This document shows positions 3,147 to 64,000 of a stretch of DNA of 64,000 bases, one piece after another. Source of the stretch: Flagellimonas sediminis. GTDB taxonomy: Bacteria; Bacteroidota; Bacteroidia; Flavobacteriales; Flavobacteriaceae. Each line of letters opens with the position of its first letter. The stretch's first letter is position 1. The notes beneath the pieces are model-generated. The model worked only from the letters and a program-made list of their open reading frames with translations, had not been told where the DNA came from and did no database searches. The stretch lies in NCBI RefSeq assembly GCF_010500845.1, contig NZ_JAAAMI010000001.1, forward strand, positions 434,001 through 498,000, written 5' to 3'. The translations under genes and the position numbers were made by a program.

Positions 3147-5993
3147 ATGGCAGGTAGCATCGATAAACTCATCATCAACAGTCCTCATCAAGAACCACAA
3201 CAACATTGGTTTTACGATAGAGAGAATAGAAATTTCTACATAAAAGAAGGCAGACGACCTGCGGGCTATGTTATGGCCACTCCAAATTCCAAAGCATTTG
3301 ACGACCCAGGTATTTTCGTAGAAATAGATATCGTTAACAAAATCCGCCCACGGGTTAAAGCTTGGCAAGAAGCAGGTTACCCTGGAGTAACCGGAATCAC
3401 CAAACGACTTCTAGAACATTGGCAAGACCCTGAAGAACGAAAAGACCGTAGATTTTTCTTTTGTCAATTAGAAGCCATTGAAACCTTGATTTGGCTCACG
3501 GAAGCACCTGCTGCGGACAAGGTGGGTGTTGACATTCAAGGAGATGGTGGAGCTTTTGAACGTTGGTGTAGTAAAATGGCAACAGGTTCAGGAAAGACCA
3601 TCATTATGTCAATGATTATCGCATGGAATTTCTTGAATAAAGTATCCAACCCAACAGATGCTCGATTTAGCAAATATGCTTTGTGTGTTGCACCTGGTCT
3701 TACGGTAAAAAGCCGACTTCAAGTTTTACAACCTACTCACGAAGAAAACTACTACGAAGAATTCAATATTGTACCTGCTGCTTTGATGGATAAACTCCGT
3801 CAAGGAAAAGTGATTATTCACAATTGGCATGCTTTAGCCTGGGATTCTCAAGATAAGATTGATGCCAAAGTTGAAAAAGGGTATTTGCGTTCTGTTGACA
3901 AACGCCAACGCATGGAAATTAGTGGTGAAGCGTATGTTCGAAATGTGCTAGGTGAAATGAGCACTGCAAGAAACATCATTGTCCTAAATGATGAAGCTCA
4001 CCATGCTTGGCGGATGAATCCAGAAGCCGTTGGAAAATACAAACGGACTGGTTCAGACAAAGACAGTGCAGAAGAAGCCACAATTTGGGTAGGAGGTTTG
4101 GATAAAATCCATGAACAAAGAGGAATTCTGAAATGCTTTGATTTATCAGCAACACCTTTCACTCCTTCAGGAAAAAAAGCAGCAGAAGATGCTTTATTCA
4201 CATGGATTGTTTCAGACTTTGGATTGAATGATGCCATTGAATCAGGTTTAGTAAAAACACCAAGGGTAGTTGTTCGTGACGATAGTGAGCGAACCAAAGA
4301 ATTGAAATCAAGATTGTATCATATATATGCAGATGATGAAGTAAAAGACGATATCAACCGCAAAGCAGAGGAAACTGAACCTCTACCCGACCTGCTCATT
4401 AATGCCTATTATCTGCTAGGAAAAGATTGGTTAGAAACGAAAAACGAATGGGAATCTGTTGGACACAAAGTTCCACCTGTAATGATTACGGTTGCCAATA
4501 GAACGGAAACTTCTGCACGTATCAAATATGCTTTTGATCACAATCAGATTTTAATACCTGAACTATGTGCTCCAGAAAAAACACTACAAATTGACAGTAG
4601 GGTATTGGAAAGTGCTGAATCAGAAACTGAAGCTCTTGAATTAGTGCTTGATTCTGAAGATGAGGATGGAGAAGAAAACATTCCTAAACTCACTAAAAAA
4701 CAACAAGCAGAATTATTGAGATTGACGGTTGATACAGTAGGAAAAGAAGGTGAACCAGGCGAGCAAATTCAAAATGTGATTTCAGTAGGCATGCTTTCCG
4801 AAGGATGGGACGCGAAAACCGTTACACATATCATGGGGTTAAGAGCTTTCTCCAGTCAATTATTGTGCGAGCAGGTAGTCGGAAGAGGATTAAGACGAGT
4901 AAGTTATGATGTAGGTGAAGATGGTTTATTTGAAGCTGAATATGTGAACATTTTTGGTGTTCCATTTACGTTTTTACCTCACGAAGGCGGCGAAGGAACA
5001 CCACCACCACCGCCCAAACCTAAAACGAAAATTGAACCAAGAAAAGAAAAGGCACAACACGAAATCTCTTTTCCAAATATTGTAAGAATTGACCATGTTT
5101 ATTACCCACAATTGAAATTGGATTGGGAAAAAGTCAATGTATTGGAGATTGACCCTTATGAATCAATCACAGAAGCAGAAATGGCTGCCATCATTTCCGG
5201 CAAAGCCAATCCAAAAGTAAAGTCAGCCATAGGATTAGAGCAAATTGCAGAAGACACAAGGATTCAATCAATTGTGTTTAAAATTGCATCCACGATTTAC
5301 AATTCAGAAAAGAAACCAGATTGGAAAGGAAGCAAAGAAATATTCTTAGCTCAGCTCGTTCGTATTGTCGAACAATTTATTGATTCGGACAATATCAAAA
5401 TTAAAAATGATTTGTTTAATCAAGACGATTCTAAAAGAAAGATTCTAATCATTCTGAATATGAACAAAATTGTTCAGCACATCTGGACAGCCATTCGCTC
5501 GGAGAATACAGAGAGACTAACACCCGTATTTGACAAAGAAAAACCTATTCGTTCGACAGAAGACGTAAGAACCTGGTATACTAGCAAGCCATGCGAATGG
5601 ACAGATAAATCACATATCAGCCATTGCGTTTATGACAGCGGCTGGGAAGCAAGTGAGGCCTACTTCTTTGATAAATCAGACCTGGTAGAATCTTTCGTTA
5701 AAAATGACCATTTAGGATTTACCATTCTATATAATCATAAAGGAGTAATCCGAAAATTCTATCCAGACTTCATTTTAAGGTTGGTAAATGGTGATTACAT
5801 GGTTTTAGAAACCAAAGGTGTTGATAACCAACAAAATCAAACCAAAAGAGAATATTTGAATGAATGGGTAAATGCAGTGAATAATCATGGTGGTTTTGGA
5901 AAGTGGCATTGGGACGTTTCTTTTCATCCTAGTGATATAGAAGGATTGGTTAAAAAATATTTGGAAAGTGAATTGACCAAAAGCCATTTATAG
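3147..5993 (+). CDS. Type III-like restriction helicase-nuclease (Res), BPTD_3080-like
   Basis: This 948-residue protein is the cleavage subunit partnered with the preceding methyltransferase. Visible motifs are Walker A (GSGKT near residue 147), the DEAH box followed by H (near 281), SATPF (helicase motif III, near 333), and a later helicase half with GMLSEGWD and a VVGRGLRR-type motif VI. The C-terminal part has a PD-(D/E)XK nuclease signature: PDF near residue 873 and ETKG near 888. The protein should translocate on DNA using ATP and cut DNA lacking the methyl mark. The architecture resembles the family named BPTD_3080 restriction endonuclease, assigned here from memory of its layout. It ends seven bases before the next gene, so transcription probably continues into it. 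Confidence 0.88.
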   Translation: MAGSIDKLIINSPHQEPQQHWFYDRENRNFYIKEGRRPAGYVMATPNSKAFDDPGIFVEIDIVNKIRPRVKAWQEAGYPGVTGITKRLLEHWQDPEERKDRRFFFCQLEAIETLIWLTEAPAADKVGVDIQGDGGAFERWCSKMATGSGKTIIMSMIIAWNFLNKVSNPTDARFSKYALCVAPGLTVKSRLQVLQPTHEENYYEEFNIVPAALMDKLRQGKVIIHNWHALAWDSQDKIDAKVEKGYLRSVDKRQRMEISGEAYVRNVLGEMSTARNIIVLNDEAHHAWRMNPEAVGKYKRTGSDKDSAEEATIWVGGLDKIHEQRGILKCFDLSATPFTPSGKKAAEDALFTWIVSDFGLNDAIESGLVKTPRVVVRDDSERTKELKSRLYHIYADDEVKDDINRKAEETEPLPDLLINAYYLLGKDWLETKNEWESVGHKVPPVMITVANRTETSARIKYAFDHNQILIPELCAPEKTLQIDSRVLESAESETEALELVLDSEDEDGEENIPKLTKKQQAELLRLTVDTVGKEGEPGEQIQNVISVGMLSEGWDAKTVTHIMGLRAFSSQLLCEQVVGRGLRRVSYDVGEDGLFEAEYVNIFGVPFTFLPHEGGEGTPPPPPKPKTKIEPRKEKAQHEISFPNIVRIDHVYYPQLKLDWEKVNVLEIDPYESITEAEMAAIISGKANPKVKSAIGLEQIAEDTRIQSIVFKIASTIYNSEKKPDWKGSKEIFLAQLVRIVEQFIDSDNIKIKNDLFNQDDSKRKILIILNMNKIVQHIWTAIRSENTERLTPVFDKEKPIRSTEDVRTWYTSKPCEWTDKSHISHCVYDSGWEASEAYFFDKSDLVESFVKNDHLGFTILYNHKGVIRKFYPDFILRLVNGDYMVLETKGVDNQQNQTKREYLNEWVNAVNNHGGFGKWHWDVSFHPSDIEGLVKKYLESELTKSHL

Positions 5994-43318: not shown

Positions 43319-43326
43319 TATTTTTG
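43319..43326 (+). promoter_or_regulatory. -7 element of the cytosine methyltransferase gene
   Basis: TATTTTTG ends three bases before ATG 43330, a spacing that predicts transcription starting at or beside the start codon. No clear TTG is seen at the -33 position. Confidence 0.4.
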
Positions 43327-43329
43327 AAC

Positions 43330-44571
43330 ATGCAAAAACTAAAGGTGTGTGAACTTTTTGCCGGGGTAGGTGGTTTTCGTTTGGGGCTGGAAACCACGGA
43401 ACACTACAAAGTAGTGTGGAGCAACCAATGGGAGCCTTCCACCAAAACGCAACACGCTTCTTTGGTGTATGAAGCCCGATTTGGGAGCGACAACCACTCC
43501 AATAAAAATATTGAAGAAGTCCCTACCGACGAAATTCCCGATCATGACATTTTGGTGGGTGGCTTTCCCTGTCAGGATTATTCCGTGGCCACCAGCCTAA
43601 AAAATTCCAAGGGCCTTTTGGGTAAAAAGGGGGTGCTTTGGTGGTCCATTCACCGTATTCTTTCCGAAAAAAAGAACAAACCCAAATACCTTTTTTTGGA
43701 AAATGTGGACCGCCTTTTAAAATCACCTTCCAACCAACGAGGTCGCGACTTTGCCATTATGCTTCGTGGTTTGTCTGATTTGGGCTATGCCGTGGAATGG
43801 CGCGTAATCAACGCGGCGGAGTATGGTATGCCTCAGCGCCGAAGGCGCGTTTTTTTTCTGGCGTACCACAAAACGACCCTATTGTTCAAAAACATAGAAA
43901 AAAAGGGGGCTTCAAATTGGCTTTTAAAGGATGGAACCACTGCAACGGCCTTACCCGTAGGAGAAACGACTGAAAATTCCCAACATTTTACTCTCGAGAA
44001 GGACCTTGTTTCCATTTCGGAACATTTTAATACCAAAAGAGGACATTCTCCCTTTCAAAATACCGGTATGTGCCTTGATGGCCATGTTACCACTTTTAAA
44101 ACGGTCCCCTCTTATGATGGGACAAGAACATTGCTTTCCGATATTTTGGAAAAAAATGCCGTTGACCCAGAGTTTTTCATCGACGATACCGAGTTGGAAA
44201 AATGGACATACCTGAAAGGCGCCAAAAAAGAAATCCGCAAGACCGTCGCCGGTTTTGAATACCATTATAGCGAGGGAAGCATGGTGTTTCCCGATGCACT
44301 CGATCAACCTTCCAGAACGATCATAACCGGTGAGGGTGGCAAATCTCCTTCCCGGTTCAAGCACGTAGTCAAAACCTCCAAGGGACTCCGAAGACTCACA
44401 CCCATTGAATTGGAACGGTTGAACATGTTTCCGGACAATCACACCTTATTGGAGGGAATCCCAAATGCCAAACGTGCATTTTTCATGGGAAATGCCCTGG
44501 TTGTAGGCATTGTGGAACGGATAGGTGCTACCCTGTTCCGGAAACTTGCCCAAATTGAAGAGCCATTTTAA
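43330..44571 (+). CDS. DNA (cytosine-5-)-methyltransferase
   Basis: The 413-residue enzyme shows all the family motifs in order: FAGVGGFRLGL (SAM binding), GGFPCQDYSVA (catalytic Cys in PCQ), ENVDRLL, AEYGMPQRRRRVFFLAY, then a target-recognition region, RRLTPIELERLNMFPDN and FFMGNALVV. It methylates cytosine at C5 in a specific site. The next gene, overlapping its end by 47 bases, is a likely restriction partner, so this is a type II system. It lies outside the tRNA-bounded element. Confidence 0.93.
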   Translation: MQKLKVCELFAGVGGFRLGLETTEHYKVVWSNQWEPSTKTQHASLVYEARFGSDNHSNKNIEEVPTDEIPDHDILVGGFPCQDYSVATSLKNSKGLLGKKGVLWWSIHRILSEKKNKPKYLFLENVDRLLKSPSNQRGRDFAIMLRGLSDLGYAVEWRVINAAEYGMPQRRRRVFFLAYHKTTLLFKNIEKKGASNWLLKDGTTATALPVGETTENSQHFTLEKDLVSISEHFNTKRGHSPFQNTGMCLDGHVTTFKTVPSYDGTRTLLSDILEKNAVDPEFFIDDTELEKWTYLKGAKKEIRKTVAGFEYHYSEGSMVFPDALDQPSRTIITGEGGKSPSRFKHVVKTSKGLRRLTPIELERLNMFPDNHTLLEGIPNAKRAFFMGNALVVGIVERIGATLFRKLAQIEEPF

Positions 44572-45163
44572 AGCAGACCTATCCAAAGAAAAACAATTAA
44601 TCCCCTTACTGGATCACTATTACAAAACCTGTTTAAAACACTCTAGTTTTGAACGTATAACCGACCTTAAACTACAAAAGGCCGGCGTGGACCTTATTTT
44701 AACCGACCACAGAAACAACAAAGAATACTATGTGGACGAAAAGGCACAATTGGATTATGTGAACGAATCCTTACCCACCTTTGCCTTTGAATTGTTTTAC
44801 AGGAAAAACAGAAAAATCCGCGAAGGTTGGTTTCTGGATGCAACCAAAAAGACCCATTTTTATGCGCTGGTGACCAGCATTTTTTCGGATGAGAAAGATA
44901 CCTTCACTTCGTGCAACATCACTTTTGTAAATCGGGAAAAATTGATGGTCCATTTATCCCAAAGAGGTCTGACCCAAAAATTTTTAAGGGAGATTTCCAT
45001 GGTGCATAAAAATCTTCATGGCAAAATGGAATTGAAGGAAATCCATCCCAAAAAGGAAGGCTATTTGTTCTTTTCTACCCAAAACAAGGCCGAAAAACCC
45101 ATTAACCTTATCCTAAAATTGGATTTTTTAGAGAGAATAGGGGTGGCAAAACGGTTGGTTTGA
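44525..45163 (+). CDS. Probable type II restriction endonuclease partnered with the methyltransferase
   Basis: The product (212 residues from the GTG at 44525; in-frame TTG codons at 44546 and 44555 are alternatives) contains a KAGVDLILTD strand followed by YYVDEKAQLDYV. This is the Asp...Glu-x-Lys pattern of the PD-(D/E)XK nuclease fold. I recognise no named enzyme family. Its reading frame begins inside the last codons of the methyltransferase, which couples translation and fits an R-M pair. If it is a nuclease it should cut the site the methyltransferase protects. The exact start is uncertain. Confidence 0.65.
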   Translation: MLPCSGNLPKLKSHFKADLSKEKQLIPLLDHYYKTCLKHSSFERITDLKLQKAGVDLILTDHRNNKEYYVDEKAQLDYVNESLPTFAFELFYRKNRKIREGWFLDATKKTHFYALVTSIFSDEKDTFTSCNITFVNREKLMVHLSQRGLTQKFLREISMVHKNLHGKMELKEIHPKKEGYLFFSTQNKAEKPINLILKLDFLERIGVAKRLV

Positions 45164-51870: not shown

Positions 51871-52821
51871 TCAATACATACACCTACAGTTGCTTATACC
51901 TTGGAATAGGTCCATACCTACCGTTACCACATGGGTACCTGTGCTATATCCCAGAATTTCATTAGTGATTACCTGATAGGAATATCCAAAATAGAAGTTG
52001 TTCTTTTTGAATCCGGCTATTGGGGCAATATACAAGGGGGCACCCCATTGATCGTTCAAAAAGCGATAGGTAAGCCCTACATAATAGTAGTCTTCAAAAT
52101 CATGAAAGCGGAACTTGGCATTAAGATCGGTAACGGAACGCCCATCGCTTTCAAACCATTGAAAGAAAATGGAGGGCTCTATTTCCAATTTACTGTTCTT
52201 GTTCTTCATGATGCTATACCCTGTGTATGCATAATAGTTCCTGAGGGTATTGGGTTCAAAGGTAGGATTGAAACGTTCCAAGTTTTTGTTGAGGATATTG
52301 GAGGCATTCAAACTGAAATAGAATTTGCCGTAACGATACAGGGCCCCGAGATCAAAGTTATGGTTGGTGGTTGCCTTATCATCTGTGGGAAGCTGACCGT
52401 TGTTTTCAGTAAAATTCTCCACATCGATCCTAAACTGGTTAAAGTTATAGGAGATACCGAATGATAGAAAGATATCGTCATACCTGTCCAGGGTCAAATG
52501 GTGGGCAAAAGATACCCTTGCACCCCTTTGTTTGGTCTCCCCATTGCTATCGTTATAGAGCAACATACCAATCCCTGATCGGTTCCCGATCCTGGCGTCT
52601 GCGGCCAAAGTTTGGGTATCAGGGGCATCCTTGATACCAACCCACTGTGTAAGTCCGTTCAGACGGACCTTTATATGGTCCCCGATACCTGCATAGGTCG
52701 GGGACATAATAAAAGGGTTGTCTGCAATATATTGTGAAAGCTGTGGTATGGTCAACTCTTGTCCTTTGGTCGTAAGGGCCAATAAAAATAAGAGGACGGT
52801 TGAATATACTTTTTTGAACAT
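51871..52821 (-). CDS. PorP/SprF family type IX secretion outer-membrane protein
   Basis: The 316-residue protein has a signal peptide (ending TTKGQ) and a beta-barrel pattern of alternating strands. The PorP/SprF start is ELTIPQLSQYIADNPFIMSPTYAGIGDHI, and the end has the usual FYFGYSYQ...NEILGYSTGTHVV. Proteins of this family pair with a giant adhesin of the SprB type, for its secretion or anchoring by the type IX system. Here it lies 19 bases downstream of such an adhesin on the same strand, as expected for a partner. Confidence 0.93.
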   Translation of the reverse strand: MFKKVYSTVLLFLLALTTKGQELTIPQLSQYIADNPFIMSPTYAGIGDHIKVRLNGLTQWVGIKDAPDTQTLAADARIGNRSGIGMLLYNDSNGETKQRGARVSFAHHLTLDRYDDIFLSFGISYNFNQFRIDVENFTENNGQLPTDDKATTNHNFDLGALYRYGKFYFSLNASNILNKNLERFNPTFEPNTLRNYYAYTGYSIMKNKNSKLEIEPSIFFQWFESDGRSVTDLNAKFRFHDFEDYYYVGLTYRFLNDQWGAPLYIAPIAGFKKNNFYFGYSYQVITNEILGYSTGTHVVTVGMDLFQGISNCRCMY

Positions 52822-52840: not shown

Positions 52841-55800
52841 TTATTGTCGATATAGGGTAAAGTGGCCTACGAACTCACGATCGTCAAGATCACCCTTCAG
52901 TTTAACTACATACCAGTAGTCTCCCGTTGGCAATGGCTTACCGTCGTAATCACCATCCCAACCTTGGGTATCTCGGGTCATCTCTTCCACTACTCTACCA
53001 TAACGATCGTAAATCTTAATTAGTACGTCTGGGAAGCCTTCCAGGTTATCCGGAATCCAAGTATCGTTCAATCCGTCACCGTCAGGGGTGAAGAAATTCG
53101 GGAACTCTACATCTATAAATTCCATAAATATCTCCGCCTGGACCTCACAACCGTTCTCATCGATAACCGTTACCGTGTAGGTATCGGTACGGTTAATGAA
53201 GAAGGTGTTGTCCGTACCATTATTGTGGTCGTTGAAATAGAAGGTATAATCTTCCACTCCACCGTTGGCAATGGCCGTAATCTGGTTGATGACGTTGTTC
53301 TCCAATACCAATGTCAAAGGTTCGTAACCTTCAATGGTAAAGTCGTAGGTGATCATACATCCATTGGCATGTGCTATGGTCAGATAATGGTCGCCCGGTG
53401 TCATATTTCTATAATCGGCGGTCAATTGCATATCAGCAGGATCGGTGGAATCCAGAGCGTACAATACATCAACAGAAACAGATGGATCTTCGAACACAAT
53501 GTTTAGATAATTATCCGGAATGTTGCCCGTACACTCATACATTGGGGTTACGGTAGCGGCAAGGTTTACACCGGGCTCTATTTCAACAAATACATTGGTT
53601 TCACATCCTTGGGCGTCCCTAACAAAGACCACATGGGTACCGGCAGCCAAGTTTTGGAACAAGAACTGGTCTTGAACAAAATCTGCATCTGCATTGGAGT
53701 TCAACGCGGTTTCATAAGGAGCCGTTCCTCCAGTTACCTGTAATTCAAATGAACCATCGGCACTGTTGTAACATACTTCGTGCATGATGTTCACTGCTTC
53801 GGCCTGAATCGGTTCAGGTTGAGTAATCTCAAACTGGAAGGTGATGAAACATCCATTCACATCCTGAGCGATCACATCATAAATGCCAGGTGCCAAATCG
53901 GTAAAGGTATTTTCTGAATCAAATTGATCCAAGTTTGGTGAAATGGCATAAAGAATCTGTCCAGTACCACCGGAAACTTCCACAGTAATGGTACCATCGT
54001 CCATTCCTGAACAGGTAACATTGGTGAAACCTTGATTATCAACTTGTAATGGAGCCGGATCTACAATCACGATTTCTGGGGATACCTCAACGCAGTCGTC
54101 ACTGATTACCCGCACATAATAGCTGCCGGCTGGTAACATGTTGAAGGTGCCACTGGTTTGTGGTCCAGCCAACAAGTTTGTCAAGGCCGCATCACCGAAC
54201 AATTCGTAGTTATAGTTACCTAAACCACCGGTTGCCGAAGCGATGATGGTAGCGGATGCTTCTCCCATACAGTTGATAAAGGCAGCAGACTCGTCAATAT
54301 TCAAAGTCAATGGCGGAATAGGATCTATGCTCACCTGGTTGGAGATTTCGGCCTCACAACCGTTGGTGTCACGCACATAGAATTGGTAAACCCCGGCACT
54401 TACAGTAAGCGTCACTGAGTTTCCGCTCATTGGGGTAAAACTGATGTTATCACTACTGTATTCGTATGACCCATTTCCTCCGGAAGCGGTCAATCTAATT
54501 TCGGCATCGTTTAGACAGGTCATTTCAGTAACCTGTACCAAAGAAGCCATAACTTCTGTTGGTTCGTTGATGGTCACCTGTGGTGTTTCCATACTACAGT
54601 TCCATCCATCGGATACGGTGATGCTATAAATACCAGCACCTAATCCGGTGAAGGTGTTATTACCTTGTTCACCCGTGGTAAAGACTATGTTGGTTCCCGT
54701 TGCATCATAGATGTTCAACTGGTACACATAGGAACCTTCACCTCCAGCCACATTGTAGGCCCATACCGCAGCACTTTCGTCTCCGTAACAGGTCAAGTCA
54801 ATAGGTGCAGCATCAATATCGGCAGTGATTGGTAGTGGTTCGGTTAACGTCAGATTTCGGATAATTTCACATCCTCCATTATCGGTGATTCGCACTTGGT
54901 AAACACCTGCTGACAGGCCTGTGAACACATAGCTCGGTACATCGTTGATGGTGTATACCTGTGTTGTTGTGGTATTGGTCAATATAATATCATAAGGCGC
55001 ATAACCACCTGTTGGAGCCACCAATATTTCGCCTTGGTCATTGGTACAGGTTACGCTTGCCACTTGTTGGGGGGTAGCGTCCAGCTGAGAACTTGGAGAT
55101 ATGATGGTGATGGTATTGGAATCCTCGGCACAGAACGGATAACCGGTTTCGGTAACACGTACAAAGTAGTTTCCACCTACCAAGGCAGGGTCTGTGATGC
55201 TCAATGGGTTAGTAGAGGTATTTCCCGCTCCTACGATACCTGTTGTGGTTCCGTTGGCCATGAAAACCTCATAGTTATAAGCACCGGTATAGCCTGTTAC
55301 ATTAATTTCCAAAGTACCCGCATCTCCAAAACACATGGCAGGAGAAGTAGCCGTTGCAATAACATCAATAGTATCATAAGGCGGAATGGTATAGGCCACC
55401 GTAGTTACGTAACAACCGGTAGCATTATCCGTCACCCTGAAGGTATATGTTCCAGGGGCGTACAACTCGAATGTAGCTGTAGTGCTCGTTGGAGTACCTG
55501 TCAGTGCGCCATATGTGTTACCAATTGGCAACAATTCAAACGTATAGGTATTGGCTACATCACCATTATCGGTAACGGTCAACAATACTTCCTCGTAATT
55601 GGCACAACTAATGGCTGTGGTCTGGGTAACGGCAACACTGAATTTGTTGATAGTTGGTATCATCACAGAAGTTGTGGTGGTACAACCGTTGCTATCCCTT
55701 ACATACAAGGTGATGTTTTGATCAACCCCAGTATCCACTACAGCAAAAGTATTTGCAGATTGGAAGGTTACATTATTCCTACTGTAGAAATAAGGTCCTG

Positions 55801-58800
55801 TTCCACCAACCGGGCTAACGGTTACGGTTGAAGTGTTCACCGAATTGTTCGGGTTACACACAAAATCCGTGGCTACGGCAGTAGCGGTCAAAGGAGTTGG
55901 TTGTCCAACAGTAACATCGAAGGTATCCTCACAAGCCCTGCTAGAAATCACCCTTACACGGTAGTTGTCCGCAGGAAGATTATCGAAAACCAAGCTAGAC
56001 TGTGCAAAACGGTATGGTGTTCCCAAATTTGACATTCGGTAAAGCTCATAGGTATACAGAGGATCAACCACAGTTGCAGGATCCATTACCACAGTCAAAC
56101 TTCCATCTGAACCACCAAAACAGTTCACATCATCTATTAGTACATCATTGATTACAGGGTCTACCTTGTCATCCAATTCTTGGGTAACCACATAGGTACA
56201 AGGTGTGGCCGTATCATTATCCGTAACGGTGAAGGTATAAACACCTGGCTGAATAAGTCCTGTGAACATACCCGTTGCATTGCTGGCAGTCGTAATTCCA
56301 TCAGGATACACCACATCAAAGGTCAAGTTAGAGGAACCACCACTTACATTGATGGTAATCTGACCTCCTGGATCCACGGTACAATCAATAGGTTTTACTA
56401 CAGTTGATGTGGCCGTCATAGCATTGGTCAATACTACTGGTCCAACAGTAGTAGTACAAGACCACTGATCCGCGATCAACACCTCGTAAGAACCGGCACC
56501 CAAGTTTGAGAATATTGGGTTGGTCTGTGGAGATCCTATGTTAGAACCATTGCGGATCAATTGGTAGGTATAGTTGCTACCTTGACCGCCTGCAGTTCCA
56601 ACCACTTCAATTTCACCTTGAAGGTTGGTACAATTCTCTTGGTTGATCTGTAATGTGGCCGTAATAGGCATTGGATCTACCAAAGAAACGGTATCAACCA
56701 TTTGGGAACATCCACTTGAGTCGATGACCCATACTTCATAAGTTCCTACAACCAATCCGGTAAAGCTTGGGCTGGCAACGTAATCGCCAGGACCAGCAGG
56801 ACTTGTGGTTCCCACGTAATAGGAATATCCACCCCATCCACCGGACACATTGGTCACCTGGATTTCGCCATCATTACCCAAACAGGTAATATCGGTTACC
56901 ACGGTTGCACCTGTAATGGCAGCAGCAGGACCAGCAATGTTGAACGATTCACTGTACACACAGGCAGAACCTGGAGGGTTGGTATCGGTCACTTCAATAT
57001 AATATGTACCTGCCGCGAGGCCAGTGATGGTAAAGCTTCCATCGGCATCAGATCCGGTGGTCACTACATCATCGCCCAAGTTGGTCGGCGTGTGGTTTAC
57101 ATCGTAATAAAGCGTATAGCTGGTTGCACTTGCGTAGGTTACGCTAGACCCATCAACCAAGTTCAATTCTACCGTACCATCTGTATCACCATAACAGGTG
57201 ATGTTGGTGGTGCCCACAACCATTAGATCTAACACTTCTGGGTCCGCCACTTCGTGGGAAACGGTTAGGATACATCCTGTTACGGTGTTTCTCACCTCAA
57301 AGTAATGAACACCAACAGAAAGACCGGTAAAGCTACCAGAAGCTTGGAAAGTACCAGATGGCAGTTCCCTAAACTCATAGTTGGCAGGGTCGGTAGTTGA
57401 ATTGGTGATGGAACCAATGGCCGTGATGGTGATATCTTCACCCGTTACACAAGTAGCAACGGCATCCACAACAATATTAGCGGAGTCCAAACTATCAAAC
57501 GGAGCAATTACGGCTGTGGTTGTACCCAAACAGCCATTTTCATCATAAACGTTGATGGTATAGCTGCCACCGTTGATATTGGTTTCTGTATAAACAGGGT
57601 TGCTACCAGCTTGTACCACTACAGAACCAGCATCGTTGATAAATTCATAGATAACATAGGTTCCACTACCTCCAGTGATGGAAGCAGTATCCACAGTAAT
57701 AGTGGCATTATTGGTATTGTTCCCTGCGGTACAGCCGAACTCAACAACCGTTGGAGCAGGAACCGCAATGGCCGCAGGCTCGTTGATGATAATATCGAAT
57801 ATGTCCACGAAACAGCTGTTAGCTCCCACACCACGAACACTATAAGTGCCCGCAGGAAGGTTTTCAAAAGTGGTACCGTTCAATACGGCACCCGCTGGCA
57901 TTGGGGTAAGCGTGTAGGTCAACGGATTGATTCCATTATCAATTTCGTGAAGGGTAATGCTACCATCGCTTCCACCAAAACAGCTCACATCCATATGGGT
58001 TTCTGTAAAGGAAGGCAGGGGTGCATCCGGTACTTCCACTGTAATGGTTTTGGAACAGTTCGGCGGAGCGGTGCCCATATCGAACACTATTACACTATAA
58101 CTACCGGCAGCGGCAGCGGCAGTCCACGTAAATGGATTGGATGGAAGCACCGTTCTAGTCTGGTCGTTCGTTCCCGGACCATCTATCATGTATTCGTAAT
58201 TTCCAGATCCAGCAATTACTGTAATTTCAATTTCTGCATTGGCAGCGGAGCCCGGCTCACAATCCAAAGCAACAGTTTGAATGGCCGTAAATTCTAGTGG
58301 AGCATGTACCGTAATGGTGTCGGTATCCATACATCCATTACTATCAAGGATGGCGACATTGTAAGTCCCAGGAGCCACATTAGTAAATACACCACCATTG
58401 TCCACATAAGTTGCTCCACCATCCAAAGAATAGAAGATTTGGGCAGCGGCACTGGTGGCATTGATGGTCACCGTAATCGGAGTGGCACAATTGTCTATAA
58501 CAACACTGTCAATAGTTGGGTTTGGTGTCAAGGTCAATGGCACAGTTCCCAAATTCACCCCACAACCAAATTGGTCTTCCATGGTGATATCGTAGTTTCC
58601 AGCTGGTGAATTGGCAGGAATCTCTATAGGGTTATCGGATGTTGAAGTAATGGTCGTAAATCCGGCAGGACCTGTAACAGTATAGGTGTAAATGCCCCCA
58701 CCCCCAAGTGGATTTTGGATCTGGATCAATCCTGGAGCATCACAGGTAATATTCTGAAGCACCACCGGAGTACCGGTCAATGGATCCAATTCTTGTAAAA

Positions 58801-61800
58801 GGGCATTTTCAGTAGCACCAACGCAACTATCTACACCACCATCAACTTCAACAACTTCAATAAAGTAAGTACCGGCAGGCAAATTGTTTACGGTTACATC
58901 CTGTGGAGAGGAATACGCAATATTGCCACCACTATTGGCAACGGCAACAGGGCTTCCAGAAGAAATATCATAAACAGTCCATCTGAATTGGTTTCCAAAT
59001 GGTGCTTGGTTATCGGTAACAGTATAAGTAATACTACCGTTGTTCATTCCAAAACAGGAAGGAGTAAGCGCAGTGGTAATTTCCAAAGGAACGGTAATCA
59101 AGTCGTTTACATCCACATTGCTTTGGCGCACACAACCTGCCGCATCCCTTACATAGAACACATAGGTTCTACCAGGAACAAGACCTGTAAACACATAAGG
59201 AGTAAATTCATCCTGTGCAGGAGTGGTCCACGCAGCAGTTGCAGGGTTGAAAGTTCCGGGCTCTTCAGAATACGCATATTGATAGTCCGGAGTACCTTCC
59301 GCACCTTGAACGGTTACCTGAAGTTCGTTACAATTAACAACCACTGCAGAAATGGTGATATCCAAATCATCCAAAGGATAAGGAATGACAAAAGGAGGTA
59401 GATCGGTTTGACAAAGGGTGTTCCCCAATCCATCCACGGTTCTCATGGAAGGATAAACAGTTTGTCCTGAGGTATAACCTGTGAATTGGTCAGATACACC
59501 TGGGTTAGAGTTATCTCCGATCCAAGTAGTACCACCATCATCACTGAATTCAATGGTTCCCAAAGTAGTTGGATATCCTGAGAATCCAAATCCAAAATCA
59601 TTGATGTCACCAGTACAGGAAGATGGAGTGATTCCATTCACAACACCGGTCAATTCATCAGGATTATTGATTGTTTGGGTATCCGTTATGGTACAACCCG
59701 CGGCATCTGTAACATTAATGGTATAGTTGCCAGGCATTAGGTTGTAATAGGTTCTGGTTGAAGCCAGTACATTGGTATTGGTTTGGTTGGAAGCTCCACC
59801 ATTGTCCAAATCGATGATTTGAATGGTGTAAGGTGCTAAGCCAGAAGTAATGTTCACCAAAATAGAACCCGTTCCATCGTGACATTGTGGGTCGGTTGGA
59901 GTAACGGTCATGGTCAAGGGCACTCCAGGATTAACGGTCACCGTTTCCATATATTCACAATATGGGGCAGTAGCAGAATTATCCCTTACGTACACATCAT
60001 AAGTTCCGTCATTACCAGTGGTTATGGTGTAAACATTGGACGCCGTGAACAGACCTGTTGGGTCAACTCCCGTCAACACGAATGCATATTGCAAAGTAGG
60101 TGAACCTCCAGAAGCGGTTACCGTAATGCTACCATCCGCACAAGTAGAAATATCCACTACTTGCACTTGGGCAACCAAGGCATCCACAATGGTCACGTTC
60201 TGTTGTACACCAAGACATCCATATTGATCACGAACGTCAATGGTATAGGTTCCGGCGGTCAGGTTGCCAAAAGTATAGGTGGTTCCGGTAGATGGCGTAG
60301 GTGTCATCCAAGGACCTCCGTTCAGGCTAAATTGATAGTTTCCGTTACCACTGGTCACATCAACTTGAATGCTTCCATCACTGTTTCCAGTATAACAAGC
60401 TGTTGGGGTTGTGGTAAATACAATCGGGATTGGGGCTACAACCGTCATAACCGTGGTAACATCCTCACACAAATTGGTATCCCTTGCCCTAACCACATAA
60501 TCACCGGCAGTAAGGCCGTTGAAAACGGTTGAGGATTGGAAAGCTACCAAGACTCCGCCAACGCCATCTTCCAATTGGTACTGATAGGTTGGGGTGCCGC
60601 CAGTGGCAGCAGCCGTAATGACCGCTCCTCCGTTGGTACAGGTCAATTGCGTGGTAATGGAAGCCGTAACATCCAACACCGCAGGTTCTGTCAATGTTTG
60701 GTTGAGCACCACGGAACATGCAGGATCCCTAAGGTCTACAATGGTGATGGTATGGTTGCCTGCTGTTAATCCGTTAACGGTTATCGGGCTGGCAAATTGG
60801 GCCGCGGAAACCGCGCCACCATCCACTTGATACGTAAATCCGGTAGCAGGGTCAAAATTTTCAGCCTCAAAAGCGATGGAGCCATCAGCCGCACCGTTAC
60901 AAGTAAGATTGGTGAAGTTGGTAATGGCAGCATCAAAAGCATGTCCGTCTTCCACGGTAACGTTCAAAGTCAAGGAATCTGTACAAACTTCCGGGGTTTG
61001 GAAGGCTTCAATATCATCTATGGCGATATCGTTTCCACCGGTTACAGCAGAATTGGTCCTGATAACAATGTCGAGATTGGTATTGGCGCCTGGATTAAGG
61101 GTTACCGTATAATTTTGCCAGTCGTTGGCACCATTGTTTTTGGGGACATTTCCTGTGGTAGTGCTCGCAATAACGGTTCCGCCACCATCTACCAATTGAA
61201 TGTCGATATCGGGATCAGCTCCACTGGTTCCTGTTCTCAAAAGGTTGAAGGCCCAAAGGGAAATGGTAATGTCCCTGTTGGCCACCACTTCAATGTTTCT
61301 TTTGGCATAAATGATTCCGTTTGGACCTACCGCTCCTCCAACGTTCATAGCCAAGAATCGACCATTGGCTAAGCCAGAATGGTCATTTGGACTCAACCAT
61401 GTTCCATAAGGATTTACGATGGTCTGGGTAACAGAGTATTCTCCATCCTGAATGTGGGTGTCAATACCCCAACCACATGAATTCACGGCACCATTTTGCG
61501 GTTCGTAGCAATAGGCTGGATCTACTTCGGGAATACTGGTATTTGGACCAGTTCCAAAGGTTTCCAGAAGCAACACACTGGGGGATGGCGCAATATTGCT
61601 GGTATAGTTTACGGTAATGGTATGGCTGCCAACGGCTACATCCGTAAAAATGTTTGATGTATTGGGCGTGTTGGGATTGCCATCAATTTCGTAAGTGTAG
61701 TCAAAGTCAGTGCTGCTAGGAGTCACCGTAATGGTTCCCTCACCATCACACTCATAGTCAATAGCGGTAGTGGCAGTTGGAGGGGTTGGTTCTGGGTCAA

Positions 61801-64000
61801 TGGTAACCGTCATAGGATAGCTACACAAGTTGGCATCCCTAATGTATAGGGTGTGCGTACCTGGAAGCAGGTACCCGATAGAACTGGCGCCATAAGTGGA
61901 ACCACCGTCAAAACTGTATTCGTAAGGAGCGGTGCCCCCGATAGCATTGGTAATCCTTACCTCGGCCCCCATACCTGGGTAACATTCAGCAAGAGCGGTA
62001 ACCGCTGCAGAGGCAGAAAGTGTCAAAGGTTCGGTTATGGTATAGATTTGGTTTACCACACAATTGTTGGCATCCCTAACCCTAATGTTGTAACTACCAG
62101 CTGGCTGGTTAACAAACGTGTTGGAGGTTTGATAAGTTGCACCATTGTTAATACTGTACATATAAGGCGCTTCCCCGCCAGAAGCCGTAATGGTAATCTG
62201 GGCTTGAGACTCTCCACTACACAGAATACCGGTGTCCACCACAGAAATCACCAATGGAGGGTCTTGTGTAATCGTAATATCATAAGTTGCCTCACAATAT
62301 CCTGAAGCACCGCCATTATCCCTTACATAAACATCGTAATCTCCAGCACCTGTAACGGATACTGGGTTTGTAGTTGAAAAATCCCCAGCGGTTGGAGCAA
62401 CACCATTGGCCACCACGGCATACACATAGTTTCCATCGCCACCAGCGGCGGTAATGGTCACATCGGTATCGGTGGTACAAGCCGTAATATTGGGGGCCGA
62501 AGCCACTACACTCAATTCGGGATCAATAGTAATGGTCTCGGAATCGAAGCAGTCGTTGCCATCTCTCACAGAAATGGTATAGGTACCAGGGCCCAATCCA
62601 GTGAACACATTGCTAGTTCCATACGGACCGCCATTCAAACTGTATTCGTAATTACCATCTCCTCCTGAAGTTACATTAGCAGTAAGGGTCAATCCCACCG
62701 CGTCGTCATAACAAATATCATTGGGAACAATGGCCAAAACGGGTGCCACGGCTTGAATAATGTCAAAAGTATCTGTAAACACACAGCCATTGGCATCGGT
62801 AACCGTGAAAGTATAGGTTCCCCCTATGGTCAAATTGGCAAACAATCCATTGGACTGCGGTCCAGTAAGTACGTAACCAGCAGGAGCATTTGTAATTTCG
62901 TAGGTATAGCTTCCCCATCCTCCGGAAGCTACAATGGTAGCATCACCATCGGCCACGCAAGTGGGTTGGTTAACGGTAACGGGAGCCGAAATAGCAGCTG
63001 GTGGAGCGGCAATGGTCACATCAGCCGTATCGGTACAGGTTGTAAAGTTATCGGTTACCGTAATGGTGTAGGTTCCTTCGGCCAGTCCTGTCAAGGAAAT
63101 AGTACCGTTGGTCTGTGCACTTCCGGAGAAGTTGGCAGGACCGGTAATGTTATAATCGTAATCGGTGTTAAAGCCTGCAACGGTGTATAGCAATTCACCA
63201 TCACTAGCCCCAAAACAGGTTATATTACCTATTAATTGACCCACTACTGAAATTTCGGTAACGGGATCAATGGTGAACGATTCGTCATAAGAACATCCGT
63301 TTGCATCGGTAACCCGGAACATATAGGTTCCTGGTGACAAACCGGCAAAAGTTGCGTTGTTTCCATTGTTCACAGCACTTCCCGCGGGGGAAATGATTTC
63401 GTATACCAAATTAGGTGTGCCACCAGTTGGTGTTACCGTTACATCGGAAACAAATGTTGGACAAATTGGATTGGTGGCCGAGAAACTCAAATCCGTTGGT
63501 GGATCCAAAGGATCGATGGTAATTGAGTTGGTCACGAAAGTACATCCGTTTTCATCCCTTATGGTGATGCTGTATGTTCCATCGGTTAAGTTGGGGAACG
63601 TTGGAGAGGCGCCAAAGGTGACCCCGTCAATACTATATTGGTATGGAGCGGTCCCTCCTGTAACATTCTGCGCTTCGATAATACCATCTTGCAAACAAGA
63701 GTATCCTTGTACCAAAACAGCATCTGCATCCAAGGCAAAGGAAGGCGCAGAAATGGTATGGTATTCAAAATAATCACAAGACGCACTACCTTTTCTTTGG
63801 TTGATAACCACTACATAATCGCCACTTGCCAAACCGGGGAAGTTTCCGGAAGCGTTGGTGGCCAAAGCATTAGCATAGCTATAGTTATCCTCGTCAAAGC
63901 CGGTAGCATCAAACAAATAATAAGTTAGTTGGTAGCCATTACTGTTTATTAGATTGAATGCAATGGAACCGGTAGCATCGCCATAACACAACACATCAGT
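52841..64000 (-). CDS. Giant SprB-repeat adhesin with T9SS type B C-terminal domain (5' end outside window)
   Basis: The frame is open to the right edge, so at least 3,720 residues lie in the window and the N-terminus is beyond it. I count about 40 repeats of roughly 80-90 residues. Most start with a Cys-containing strand (NITCFG, DVNCFGGSDGS and similar), then GG.xPY.Y or equivalent, and end in a GTYTI or GxY-type strand before RDxNGC: the SprB repeat. A non-repeat insert of roughly 200 residues (about 60970-61580) looks like a jelly-roll domain. The C-terminal 90 residues (FPNFFTPDGDGLNDTW and on to WYVVKLKG) are the gliding-motility-associated sorting domain. It is a surface adhesin for gliding or attachment, secreted by T9SS with the PorP/SprF protein encoded next. 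Confidence 0.95.
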   Translation of the reverse strand, partial: TDVLCYGDATGSIAFNLINSNGYQLTYYLFDATGFDEDNYSYANALATNASGNFPGLASGDYVVVINQRKGSASCDYFEYHTISAPSFALDADAVLVQGYSCLQDGIIEAQNVTGGTAPYQYSIDGVTFGASPTFPNLTDGTYSITIRDENGCTFVTNSITIDPLDPPTDLSFSATNPICPTFVSDVTVTPTGGTPNLVYEIISPAGSAVNNGNNATFAGLSPGTYMFRVTDANGCSYDESFTIDPVTEISVVGQLIGNITCFGASDGELLYTVAGFNTDYDYNITGPANFSGSAQTNGTISLTGLAEGTYTITVTDNFTTCTDTADVTIAAPPAAISAPVTVNQPTCVADGDATIVASGGWGSYTYEITNAPAGYVLTGPQSNGLFANLTIGGTYTFTVTDANGCVFTDTFDIIQAVAPVLAIVPNDICYDDAVGLTLTANVTSGGDGNYEYSLNGGPYGTSNVFTGLGPGTYTISVRDGNDCFDSETITIDPELSVVASAPNITACTTDTDVTITAAGGDGNYVYAVVANGVAPTAGDFSTTNPVSVTGAGDYDVYVRDNGGASGYCEATYDITITQDPPLVISVVDTGILCSGESQAQITITASGGEAPYMYSINNGATYQTSNTFVNQPAGSYNIRVRDANNCVVNQIYTITEPLTLSASAAVTALAECYPGMGAEVRITNAIGGTAPYEYSFDGGSTYGASSIGYLLPGTHTLYIRDANLCSYPMTVTIDPEPTPPTATTAIDYECDGEGTITVTPSSTDFDYTYEIDGNPNTPNTSNIFTDVAVGSHTITVNYTSNIAPSPSVLLLETFGTGPNTSIPEVDPAYCYEPQNGAVNSCGWGIDTHIQDGEYSVTQTIVNPYGTWLSPNDHSGLANGRFLAMNVGGAVGPNGIIYAKRNIEVVANRDITISLWAFNLLRTGTSGADPDIDIQLVDGGGTVIASTTTGNVPKNNGANDWQNYTVTLNPGANTNLDIVIRTNSAVTGGNDIAIDDIEAFQTPEVCTDSLTLNVTVEDGHAFDAAITNFTNLTCNGAADGSIAFEAENFDPATGFTYQVDGGAVSAAQFASPITVNGLTAGNHTITIVDLRDPACSVVLNQTLTEPAVLDVTASITTQLTCTNGGAVITAAATGGTPTYQYQLEDGVGGVLVAFQSSTVFNGLTAGDYVVRARDTNLCEDVTTVMTVVAPIPIVFTTTPTACYTGNSDGSIQVDVTSGNGNYQFSLNGGPWMTPTPSTGTTYTFGNLTAGTYTIDVRDQYGCLGVQQNVTIVDALVAQVQVVDISTCADGSITVTASGGSPTLQYAFVLTGVDPTGLFTASNVYTITTGNDGTYDVYVRDNSATAPYCEYMETVTVNPGVPLTMTVTPTDPQCHDGTGSILVNITSGLAPYTIQIIDLDNGGASNQTNTNVLASTRTYYNLMPGNYTINVTDAAGCTITDTQTINNPDELTGVVNGITPSSCTGDINDFGFGFSGYPTTLGTIEFSDDGGTTWIGDNSNPGVSDQFTGYTSGQTVYPSMRTVDGLGNTLCQTDLPPFVIPYPLDDLDITISAVVVNCNELQVTVQGAEGTPDYQYAYSEEPGTFNPATAAWTTPAQDEFTPYVFTGLVPGRTYVFYVRDAAGCVRQSNVDVNDLITVPLEITTALTPSCFGMNNGSITYTVTDNQAPFGNQFRWTVYDISSGSPVAVANSGGNIAYSSPQDVTVNNLPAGTYFIEVVEVDGGVDSCVGATENALLQELDPLTGTPVVLQNITCDAPGLIQIQNPLGGGGIYTYTVTGPAGFTTITSTSDNPIEIPANSPAGNYDITMEDQFGCGVNLGTVPLTLTPNPTIDSVVIDNCATPITVTINATSAAAQIFYSLDGGATYVDNGGVFTNVAPGTYNVAILDSNGCMDTDTITVHAPLEFTAIQTVALDCEPGSAANAEIEITVIAGSGNYEYMIDGPGTNDQTRTVLPSNPFTWTAAAAAGSYSVIVFDMGTAPPNCSKTITVEVPDAPLPSFTETHMDVSCFGGSDGSITLHEIDNGINPLTYTLTPMPAGAVLNGTTFENLPAGTYSVRGVGANSCFVDIFDIIINEPAAIAVPAPTVVEFGCTAGNNTNNATITVDTASITGGSGTYVIYEFINDAGSVVVQAGSNPVYTETNINGGSYTINVYDENGCLGTTTAVIAPFDSLDSANIVVDAVATCVTGEDITITAIGSITNSTTDPANYEFRELPSGTFQASGSFTGLSVGVHYFEVRNTVTGCILTVSHEVADPEVLDLMVVGTTNITCYGDTDGTVELNLVDGSSVTYASATSYTLYYDVNHTPTNLGDDVVTTGSDADGSFTITGLAAGTYYIEVTDTNPPGSACVYSESFNIAGPAAAITGATVVTDITCLGNDGEIQVTNVSGGWGGYSYYVGTTSPAGPGDYVASPSFTGLVVGTYEVWVIDSSGCSQMVDTVSLVDPMPITATLQINQENCTNLQGEIEVVGTAGGQGSNYTYQLIRNGSNIGSPQTNPIFSNLGAGSYEVLIADQWSCTTTVGPVVLTNAMTATSTVVKPIDCTVDPGGQITINVSGGSSNLTFDVVYPDGITTASNATGMFTGLIQPGVYTFTVTDNDTATPCTYVVTQELDDKVDPVINDVLIDDVNCFGGSDGSLTVVMDPATVVDPLYTYELYRMSNLGTPYRFAQSSLVFDNLPADNYRVRVISSRACEDTFDVTVGQPTPLTATAVATDFVCNPNNSVNTSTVTVSPVGGTGPYFYSRNNVTFQSANTFAVVDTGVDQNITLYVRDSNGCTTTTSVMIPTINKFSVAVTQTTAISCANYEEVLLTVTDNGDVANTYTFELLPIGNTYGALTGTPTSTTATFELYAPGTYTFRVTDNATGCYVTTVAYTIPPYDTIDVIATATSPAMCFGDAGTLEINVTGYTGAYNYEVFMANGTTTGIVGAGNTSTNPLSITDPALVGGNYFVRVTETGYPFCAEDSNTITIISPSSQLDATPQQVASVTCTNDQGEILVAPTGGYAPYDIILTNTTTTQVYTINDVPSYVFTGLSAGVYQVRITDNGGCEIIRNLTLTEPLPITADIDAAPIDLTCYGDESAAVWAYNVAGGEGSYVYQLNIYDATGTNIVFTTGEQGNNTFTGLGAGIYSITVSDGWNCSMETPQVTINEPTEVMASLVQVTEMTCLNDAEIRLTASGGNGSYEYSSDNISFTPMSGNSVTLTVSAGVYQFYVRDTNGCEAEISNQVSIDPIPPLTLNIDESAAFINCMGEASATIIASATGGLGNYNYELFGDAALTNLLAGPQTSGTFNMLPAGSYYVRVISDDCVEVSPEIVIVDPAPLQVDNQGFTNVTCSGMDDGTITVEVSGGTGQILYAISPNLDQFDSENTFTDLAPGIYDVIAQDVNGCFITFQFEITQPEPIQAEAVNIMHEVCYNSADGSFELQVTGGTAPYETALNSNADADFVQDQFLFQNLAAGTHVVFVRDAQGCETNVFVEIEPGVNLAATVTPMYECTGNIPDNYLNIVFEDPSVSVDVLYALDSTDPADMQLTADYRNMTPGDHYLTIAHANGCMITYDFTIEGYEPLTLVLENNVINQITAIANGGVEDYTFYFNDHNNGTDNTFFINRTDTYTVTVIDENGCEVQAEIFMEFIDVEFPNFFTPDGDGLNDTWIPDNLEGFPDVLIKIYDRYGRVVEEMTRDTQGWDGDYDGKPLPTGDYWYVVKLKGDLDDREFVGHFTLYRQ

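Follow-up and report, generated by a model that had tools for sequence, protein, structure and literature searches.

A probable SprB gliding adhesin of Flagellimonas sediminis with constrained length, in-register block exchange between species and putatively disulfide-stapled joints

The sprB locus and its surroundings

We analysed a 64,000-nucleotide stretch of the Flagellimonas sediminis genome, referred to here as the window, whose last part carries most of a gene for a giant SprB protein (Table 1). The portion of the frame in the window codes for 3,719 residues and contains no stop. An earlier note on this DNA had placed the N-terminus outside the window, and extending the frame confirmed it: the ATG lies 3,024 bases past the edge (L011:15024), and the full frame has 4,737 codons. 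The protein, P0001, is 4,727 residues long. Rather than ending shortly beyond the window, it continues there for 1,008 residues, with a hydrophobic, signal-peptide-like N-terminus after the ATG as judged by eye.

The Pfam model for SprB, PF13573, matched P0001 as a whole in 10 stretches (E 2.2e-96; 315.6 bits against a cut-off of 28). Cutting the protein at its cysteines gave 42 units between residues 737 and 4570, each 77-104 residues long except unit 13, which is longer because of an insert. Of these, 39 are in the window (u5-u42 complete, u4 cut), and the earlier estimate of about 40 SprB repeats was a good one. Ahead of the units lie a tip domain (residues 24-375), for which no Pfam or NCBIfam match was found at E 1, and then a DUF7619-matching part and Cys-rich linker domains. 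After u42 come a domain that has only the second of the two unit cysteines and a type B T9SS tail, matched by TIGR04131 at 96.4 bits (cut-off 35, E 8.2e-28) and also by CHU_C, PF13585.

Table 1. Features of the sprB region, in window coordinates; residue numbers are those of P0001.
Feature	Position	Strand	Basis
sprB coding part in the window, residues 1009-4727	52841..64000	-	open frame
Ig-type two-Cys units: part of u4, u5-u42, residues 1009-4570	53315..64000	-	Cys cutting, PF13573, AF2 of u38-41
Putative exchange block spanning u12-u13; two allele classes, one with the insert and one lacking it	60941..62017	-	alignment, classes, AU tests
Predicted jelly-roll insert in unit 13, about 203 residues (1811-2013)	60986..61594	-	AF2, VIA, Pfam MAM below cut-off
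Putative exchange block spanning u17-u23 (residues 2285-2912), each unit with 2-4 allele classes	58289..60172	-	classes, AU tests, pair identities
u20-u21, candidate swap in the present copy	58781..59368	-	nucleotide identity to named relatives
Last domain before the tail, residues 4571-4638; Cys 4626 = C2, without C1	53111..53314	-	Cys spacing
u39 to C-terminus, conserved, tracks the species tree	52844..54313	-	classes, AU tests, rpoBC correlation
T9SS type B sorting domain	52847..53107	-	TIGR04131, PF13585
sprF-type carrier, PorP/SprF family, 316 aa, C-terminus C-R-C-M-Y	51871..52821	-	profile matches, twin-Cys motif

The minus-strand gene order begins with an Ig and CHU_C protein, followed by a PorP/SprF barrel that also carries a SPOR domain; P0001 and a PorP/SprF protein come next. 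By order only, the two genes upstream of sprB match the sprC and sprD positions. The gene directly downstream encodes a SprF-type protein (P0004; TIGR03519, 205 bits) that ends in CRCMY, a C-x-C tail. By SprF, the nearest named relatives are Muricauda sp. M10 (97%) and Flagellimonas pelagia (95%), and the host genome is close to Flagellimonas/Allomuricauda. Like F. johnsoniae SprB, for which PMC9870892 gives 6,497 aa, P0001 is a giant repeat protein with a type B T9SS tail and an adjacent SprF gene; the likeness extends, by gene order, to the genes in the sprC/sprD position and also to gliding genes in the genome. It differs from that protein in its 4,727 aa, its 42 units, the insert in unit 13 and the interspecies block exchange described below.

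Two further regions were recorded in passing. In the window, at 43324-45163 on the plus strand, a DNA cytosine methyltransferase-like gene is followed by a small gene that may, by eye, code for a restriction enzyme. About 500 kb away on the same contig (L014:3033-7988), a second SprF-type gene, ending CTCTY, lies beside an adhesin-like gene with masked or unknown bases mid-gene; the repeats of the latter, about 70 residues each, are near-identical by eye and recent, unlike the array in the window.

Ig-type units, their cysteines and the carrier

The 42 units are far from identical to one another, with pairwise identities of 10-41% and a mean of 24.6%. We compared neighbours, as the earlier note had proposed, and found them no more alike than other unit pairs (mean 24.1% at lag 1, equalled or exceeded in 3936 of 5000 shuffles), and a DNA tandem-repeat finder returned 0 rows for the array. 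On these three grounds a recent tandem expansion was rejected, and the units are, judged by their identities, old. The earlier note had read the diversity of the repeats as an old expansion; unit identity and the colinear order of 27 of 28 aligned orthologs support that reading, but it is incomplete, since exchange of blocks between species appears to have contributed too.

Each of the 42 units has two cysteines, those of the insert counted apart: C1 near the start, which the earlier note had rightly reported, and C2 near the end, which it had overlooked. C1 and C2 are 51-78 residues apart, and 24-29 residues separate C2 from the next C1. In the present genome and 27 relatives, exactly two cysteines were present in 1147 of 1148 aligned units (41 positions in 28 sequences, unit 13 being excluded owing to its insert), and the one single-Cys unit, L104_u17, lies in a locus with 44 N. 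This pattern is kept although units can be 80% different. The last domain before the tail has C2 without C1 in 133 of 134 arrays, a set whose members are interrelated and in which named and unnamed records may be identical genomes; the exception is L014, a locus with masked bases. In proteins of other genera (L189, L191-L193, L195, L196, L199 and L201) two extra cysteines, missing in P0001, follow the C2-only cysteine near the start of the tail, at spacings of 70-76, then 14 and 16-20. A search of the literature on repeats and cysteines found nothing of use.

AF2 modelling of u38-41 from 68 sequences predicted all-beta domains with a pLDDT of 91. Foldseek and VIA matched this model to fragments of GhpA, to titin I65-I70 and to other Ig or FN3 tandems, and a sequence profile of the units found GhpA at E 5e-29. 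The best solved relative of the units is GhpA of Aureispira sp. CCB-QB1 (9flp, 9flu, 9flw and others; VIA Z 10.3 over 296 residues, rmsd 7.9), some of whose aligned units also have a cysteine at both positions. GhpA, a PDB chain of 5,898 residues, acts as a predatory grappling hook; for P0001 we found no evidence of a hook.

We then analysed couplings in 3,920 rows of neighbouring units from the 134 arrays (effective number 1,772). The couplings recovered the Ig topology, with strands C and F antiparallel (20-51, 22-49, 24-47), F and G antiparallel (45-63, 47-61, 49-59) and the BC turn paired with the end of F (15-52). A parallel pairing of A' and G at an offset of 66-68 was weaker (mean z 0.4-1.0), and its one cell of z 5.7 is common to an antiparallel diagonal. 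By these couplings C1 falls in the A'-B turn and C2 in the F-G turn, such that C1 (position 0) is opposite position 66-68 of strand G and C2 (position 56) is ten or more residues away. Since the two cysteines are at opposite ends of the unit, a bond within the unit is unlikely, and we propose instead a staple between C1 of unit n and C2 of unit n+1. A rod stapled in this way would need only C2 in its last domain, which is what all arrays but one have. Couplings between neighbouring units were no stronger than those from unit n to unit n+2: of 180 pairs, 6 and 5 respectively exceeded z 3. The top neighbour-unit pair runs in the wrong direction for a staple. Strong couplings among the invariant Cys columns were discarded as artefacts, C0-C0' scoring the same.

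A C1-C2 disulfide inside each unit would suit the constant number of two cysteines per unit and, by count, would close neatly at the N-terminal end of the array. We nevertheless regard it as unlikely, with C1 placed after strand A' and C2 at the start of strand G, about ten residues apart on parallel strands, and with a cysteine left free in the last domain of the 133 arrays. One cysteine is unpaired in either bonding scheme.

The carrier bears on whether the protein is moved at all. In F. johnsoniae, according to PMC9143113, SprB is exported by the T9SS and its last 368 aa bind SprF, a region that in P0001 falls within u39 to the C-terminus, and PMC12635249 reports that the twin-Cys tail of SprF bonds to GldK of the moving track and that the C-x-C motif is needed for gliding. 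The C-x-C tail of SprF was present in 27 of 27 relatives collected and in 68 of 69 named loci. GldJ was found in the present genome (886 bits) and in all 71 congeneric genomes (69 over cut-off), and GldK in the present genome (610 bits) has its cysteine in DTGCF. It could be argued that P0001 is a static T9SS type B adhesin that gliding does not move, given that the group includes species reported not to glide (two Muricauda species in PMC10301316) and that in F. johnsoniae the static pairs lie close to a PorE-type gene (PMC12618676, PMC9143113). The C-x-C tail here and in every relative collected, together with GldJ throughout the genus, makes this distinctly improbable.

Array length and exchange of unit blocks

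We fetched 29 sprB genes from 35 same-genus relatives. Left out were G003, G011 and G023, which have a full or nearly full N-terminal match in frames of 2754, 2583 and 853 aa, and G006, G026 and G029, with little or no N-terminal match; the frameshifted L129 (G014) was excluded from the alignments, and L128 was aligned but excluded from class counts and trees. Register was kept in 27 of 28 aligned congeneric orthologs, with no unit gained or lost. Frames with the unit-13 insert (21 orthologs) measure 4722-4817 aa and those without it (L102, L107, L110, L114, L121 and L123) 4549-4596 aa. The array length is not absolute, because L128, with 28 units, has lost about 14 units in two register-keeping losses, u10-u16 and about u24-u31; it is a natural short-rod variant. 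Two sprB genes may be broken or may contain a sequencing error: that of L129, which is read in two frames that overlap (1,867 and 2,956 aa), and that of L033 (Allomuricauda amphidinii), with a 2,956-aa frame.

Family-wide, 135 of 249 genomes had a SprB-like match, and the frames bunch at few lengths. By our own count, at least 48 frames among the matches listed fall at 2,720-2,850 aa, with other clusters near 3,220-3,260, 4,550-4,880 and 5,700-6,060 aa, some frames lying between these and some being cut by contig ends. Ig domains are roughly 3-4 nm long, and about 45 of them would plausibly give a SprB rod of about 130-180 nm. The earlier note's remark that the array would reach far from the cell surface is plausible on this domain count. 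The longer SprB of F. johnsoniae is put at about 200 nm in PMC12635249.

The insert sits before the last strand of unit 13 and is missing in 6 of 27 full-length relatives, its presence varying by species. AF2 (25 sequences, pLDDT 88) predicted a jelly roll of CBM4/CBM22/MAM type, and VIA aligned it to 3jxs, a CBM4-2 derivative, over 149 residues (Z 13.9, rmsd 2.8). In Pfam only MAM was matched (7.6e-4; 19.8 bits against a cut-off of 26.4), and in NCBIfam choice_anch_J (18.7 against a cut-off of 30) and three weaker models, none over cut-off. By its modelled fold, the insert is a jelly roll of carbohydrate-binding type (CBM4-like), shared with 3jxs, 4xuo, the meprin MAM domain and the alginate and porphyran CBMs 8zqf and 8xmz; it differs from these in identity, at 10-18% in the top rows, and in its place inside an Ig unit of a motility rod.

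Sampling was one genome per species. Identity to P0001, in 200-residue windows, leaps within single proteins from 70-90% to about 30% and back. Runs of 1-8 units form deep allele classes, about 20-40% identical, that are scattered over the species tree. Per-unit clustering gave a single class for several parts, including DUF11-u2, u9-u10 and the stretch from u39 to the tail; the first part of the tip, u3-u4, u8, u12-13, u17-u28, u32-u34 and u38 fell into two to four deep classes. The species tree was built from rpoB and rpoC (8,142 columns, 30 species) and covers 26 of the 28 class-count sequences, G007 and G013 being without a whole rpoB. On this tree the insert block changed 5 times against a mean of 4.8 for shuffled labels, u38 3 times against 2.9, u17-18 5 times against 8.2 and u19-20 6 times against 8.9. 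Near-perfect fits to the species tree were obtained for u8, with one change, and for u33, with two changes among three classes.

AU tests, whose p-values are not those of blind hypotheses because the pairs were picked after the pattern was visible, rejected the sisterhood of G019/G024 in u17-23 (lnL 585, p 1e-56), of G008/G034 in the tip (p 2e-61) and u12-13 (p 4e-63), of G001/G005 in u12-13 (p 2e-77) and of G012/G021 in u3-4 (p 5e-69) and, more weakly, in the tip (p 0.005). Over five rejected block tests in these four sister pairs the lnL gaps were 159-585. All four pairs are clades in u39-CTD, with support of 96-100. There was no rejection for G012/G021 in DUF11-u2 (p 0.08) and u17-23 (p 0.23), for G001/G005 in u3-4 (p 0.09), or for G002/G018 in the tip (0.39) and u12-13 (0.40).

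Across 325 pairs, the identity of units u39-u42 correlated with that of rpoBC (r 0.79-0.86), and the correlation was slight for u12 (0.03), u17-23 (0.16-0.36) and u27-28 (0.14-0.16). Only 3 of these 325 pairs combined rpoBC identity of 95% or less with a segment at 96% or more in nucleotide sequence, and most of the exchange is therefore not recent. The clearest of the three, G009 and G022, at 89.5% in rpoBC, are 98-100% identical at the nucleotide level in u31-u32 (u32 100%) and 98-99% in u37-u40. G001 and G005 have u22-24 at 100% in nucleotides and u12 at 47%.

Named loci showed the same kind of break. Out of 80, a frame was obtained for 75, of which 69 had the length needed for comparison; among the 31 named pairs with SprF at 95% or more, 21 had a segment below 60% and 10 did not. 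F. amoyensis and F. hadalis (SprF 98%, median 94%) are 39-45% identical in u19-u21, and Muricauda sp. CP2A and CAU 1633 (SprF 97%) are 30-38% identical in u17-u23 and 40-51% in u27-u29. The three nearest named relatives match u20-u21 of the present genome at 72-73% in nucleotides; elsewhere the values are mostly 79-95%, and u36 is low too (71-74%).

For comparison we used the neighbouring genes and a second SprB-like protein. In six sister pairs, 8, 7, 2, 0, 1 and 2 of 47 SprB windows were below 60%; the second SprB-like protein had 0 of 27 windows of 100 residues below 60% in each pair, and SprD and SprF were 91-99% and 96-100% identical. The sister pair G018/G002 had no such SprB window. In four further, non-sister pairs the SprB counts were 12, 9, 5 and 1 of 47 and those of the second protein 0, 0, 0 and 1 of 27; its copy in G017 is cut at 2,494 aa. 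As SprD, SprF and the second SprB-like protein lack the pattern, exchange is not a property of whole genomes or of the operon. The second protein itself (L012:1172-9487, 2,771 aa) is a SprB-like protein with no block exchange in the six sister pairs, and its length falls in the family-wide cluster of 2,720-2,850 aa.

Other genera have allele classes in common with this one. The insert occurs in Maribacter thermophilus and Maribacter sp. MMG018, whose u12 is at 74%, against 27-38% for u12 in the four other Maribacter records that reach it. In a second genus, with SprB frames of 4856-4921 aa in nine species, no window below 50% was found in any of 36 pairs, and windows at 54-66% lie within arrays of median 80-97% and group the species differently. 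There G345 and G347 are 99-100% identical in two windows in which five others are about 60% to G345, and G347 groups with G342 and G344 in another window; a second array has one block at 29-36% between G344 and G342, at a median of 95%. The pattern in this genus is milder but, from these identities, present. The genus of G164 is represented by one genome only.

Units 10-16 and 12-18 of the 3,600-aa and 4,125-aa SprB-like arrays of the genus are similar to class A of u17-u23 (54-84% at best), while the other u17-u23 classes reach 29-45% at best against these arrays and flanking units about 46-58%; blocks have therefore also moved between different SprB-like genes. Such paralogs can be donors, which would also suit silent cassettes kept in each strain for self-switching by antigenic or phase variation, as would a u17-23-type block at 47% in the second array of G012. 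However, a search of six genomes, made for u17-23 only, saw no close second copy of the other class: the best-scoring matches of class B in G000, G008 and G019 were 34-35% to another array, and those of class A in G024 and G005 were partial, 40-42% at best. We consider silent cassettes very improbable.

Divergence in place alone, with units changing at unequal rates and without exchange, is hardly credible: the units are old and diverse, u8 and u33 fit the species tree and some pair-block AU tests gave no rejection, but the four sister pairs fail as clades in the five block tests, distant species share a class, the insert block changes as often as shuffled labels and identical units stand beside 47% ones in G001/G005, which together with the rpoBC correlation refutes this explanation unless genes were misassembled. 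We infer from the sequences an interspecies exchange of unit blocks in a length-constrained rod, in which the SprF end has passed down by vertical inheritance, exchange in blocks having affected much of the remainder.

A proposed length-constrained rod with exchangeable blocks

Taken together, P0001 is probably a SprB gliding adhesin with constrained length and in-register exchange between species, and we propose that disulfides staple its joints. A broader proposal is a standardised construction kit in which stapled Ig units make up a load-bearing chain of fixed length. Every joint being alike, species and genera would trade blocks and the sugar-binding insert in register, and pressure exerted by phages or surfaces would leave each species with a combination of its own; this we put forward tentatively, as possible rather than probable.

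In the proposed mechanism the T9SS would export SprB, SprF would hold it and it would be dragged along the GldJ/GldK track, the N-terminal domain forming the tip. The unit count, and hence the length of the rod, would be under strong constraint, equal length mattering where a cell uses many rods to pull on a surface. The middle and tip would vary by homologous, in-register exchange whose partners are other species and, at times, other SprB-like genes, blocks being interchangeable because every unit offers the same ends. Each joint would be stapled by the bond from C1 of one unit to C2 of the next, so that the rod still bears load. The insert and the tip classes probably set what the rod sticks to, and selection by phages or surfaces in contact with the rod probably maintains the diversity, the least certain of these steps. 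In F. columnare, phage-resistant lines had lost gliding, and the receptor suggested by the authors is the gliding apparatus (PMC3534065); by analogy, phages are a likely driver of the diversity.

Conserved ends with exchanged middle parts are also found in flagellin, streptococcal M protein and myxobacterial TraA. Unlike in those proteins, the exchange here would be between species and in register over 42 units, with the unit number and the Cys frame kept. Among the open-licence papers listed, none reporting SprB block exchange was found by title or abstract start, and block exchange at a near-fixed unit count, an insert that comes and goes and the proposed staples appear to be new.

SprB is the moving leg of the Bacteroidota gliding system. 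A nearly constant unit count with swapped blocks separates what this leg needs, namely its length, its joints and its SprF end, from what can be changed, the middle and the tip. A covalent link further down the SprB-SprF-GldK chain has been invoked for bearing the pull (PMC12635249), and a disulfide ladder in a tensile rod, if true, would explain how that pull is borne.
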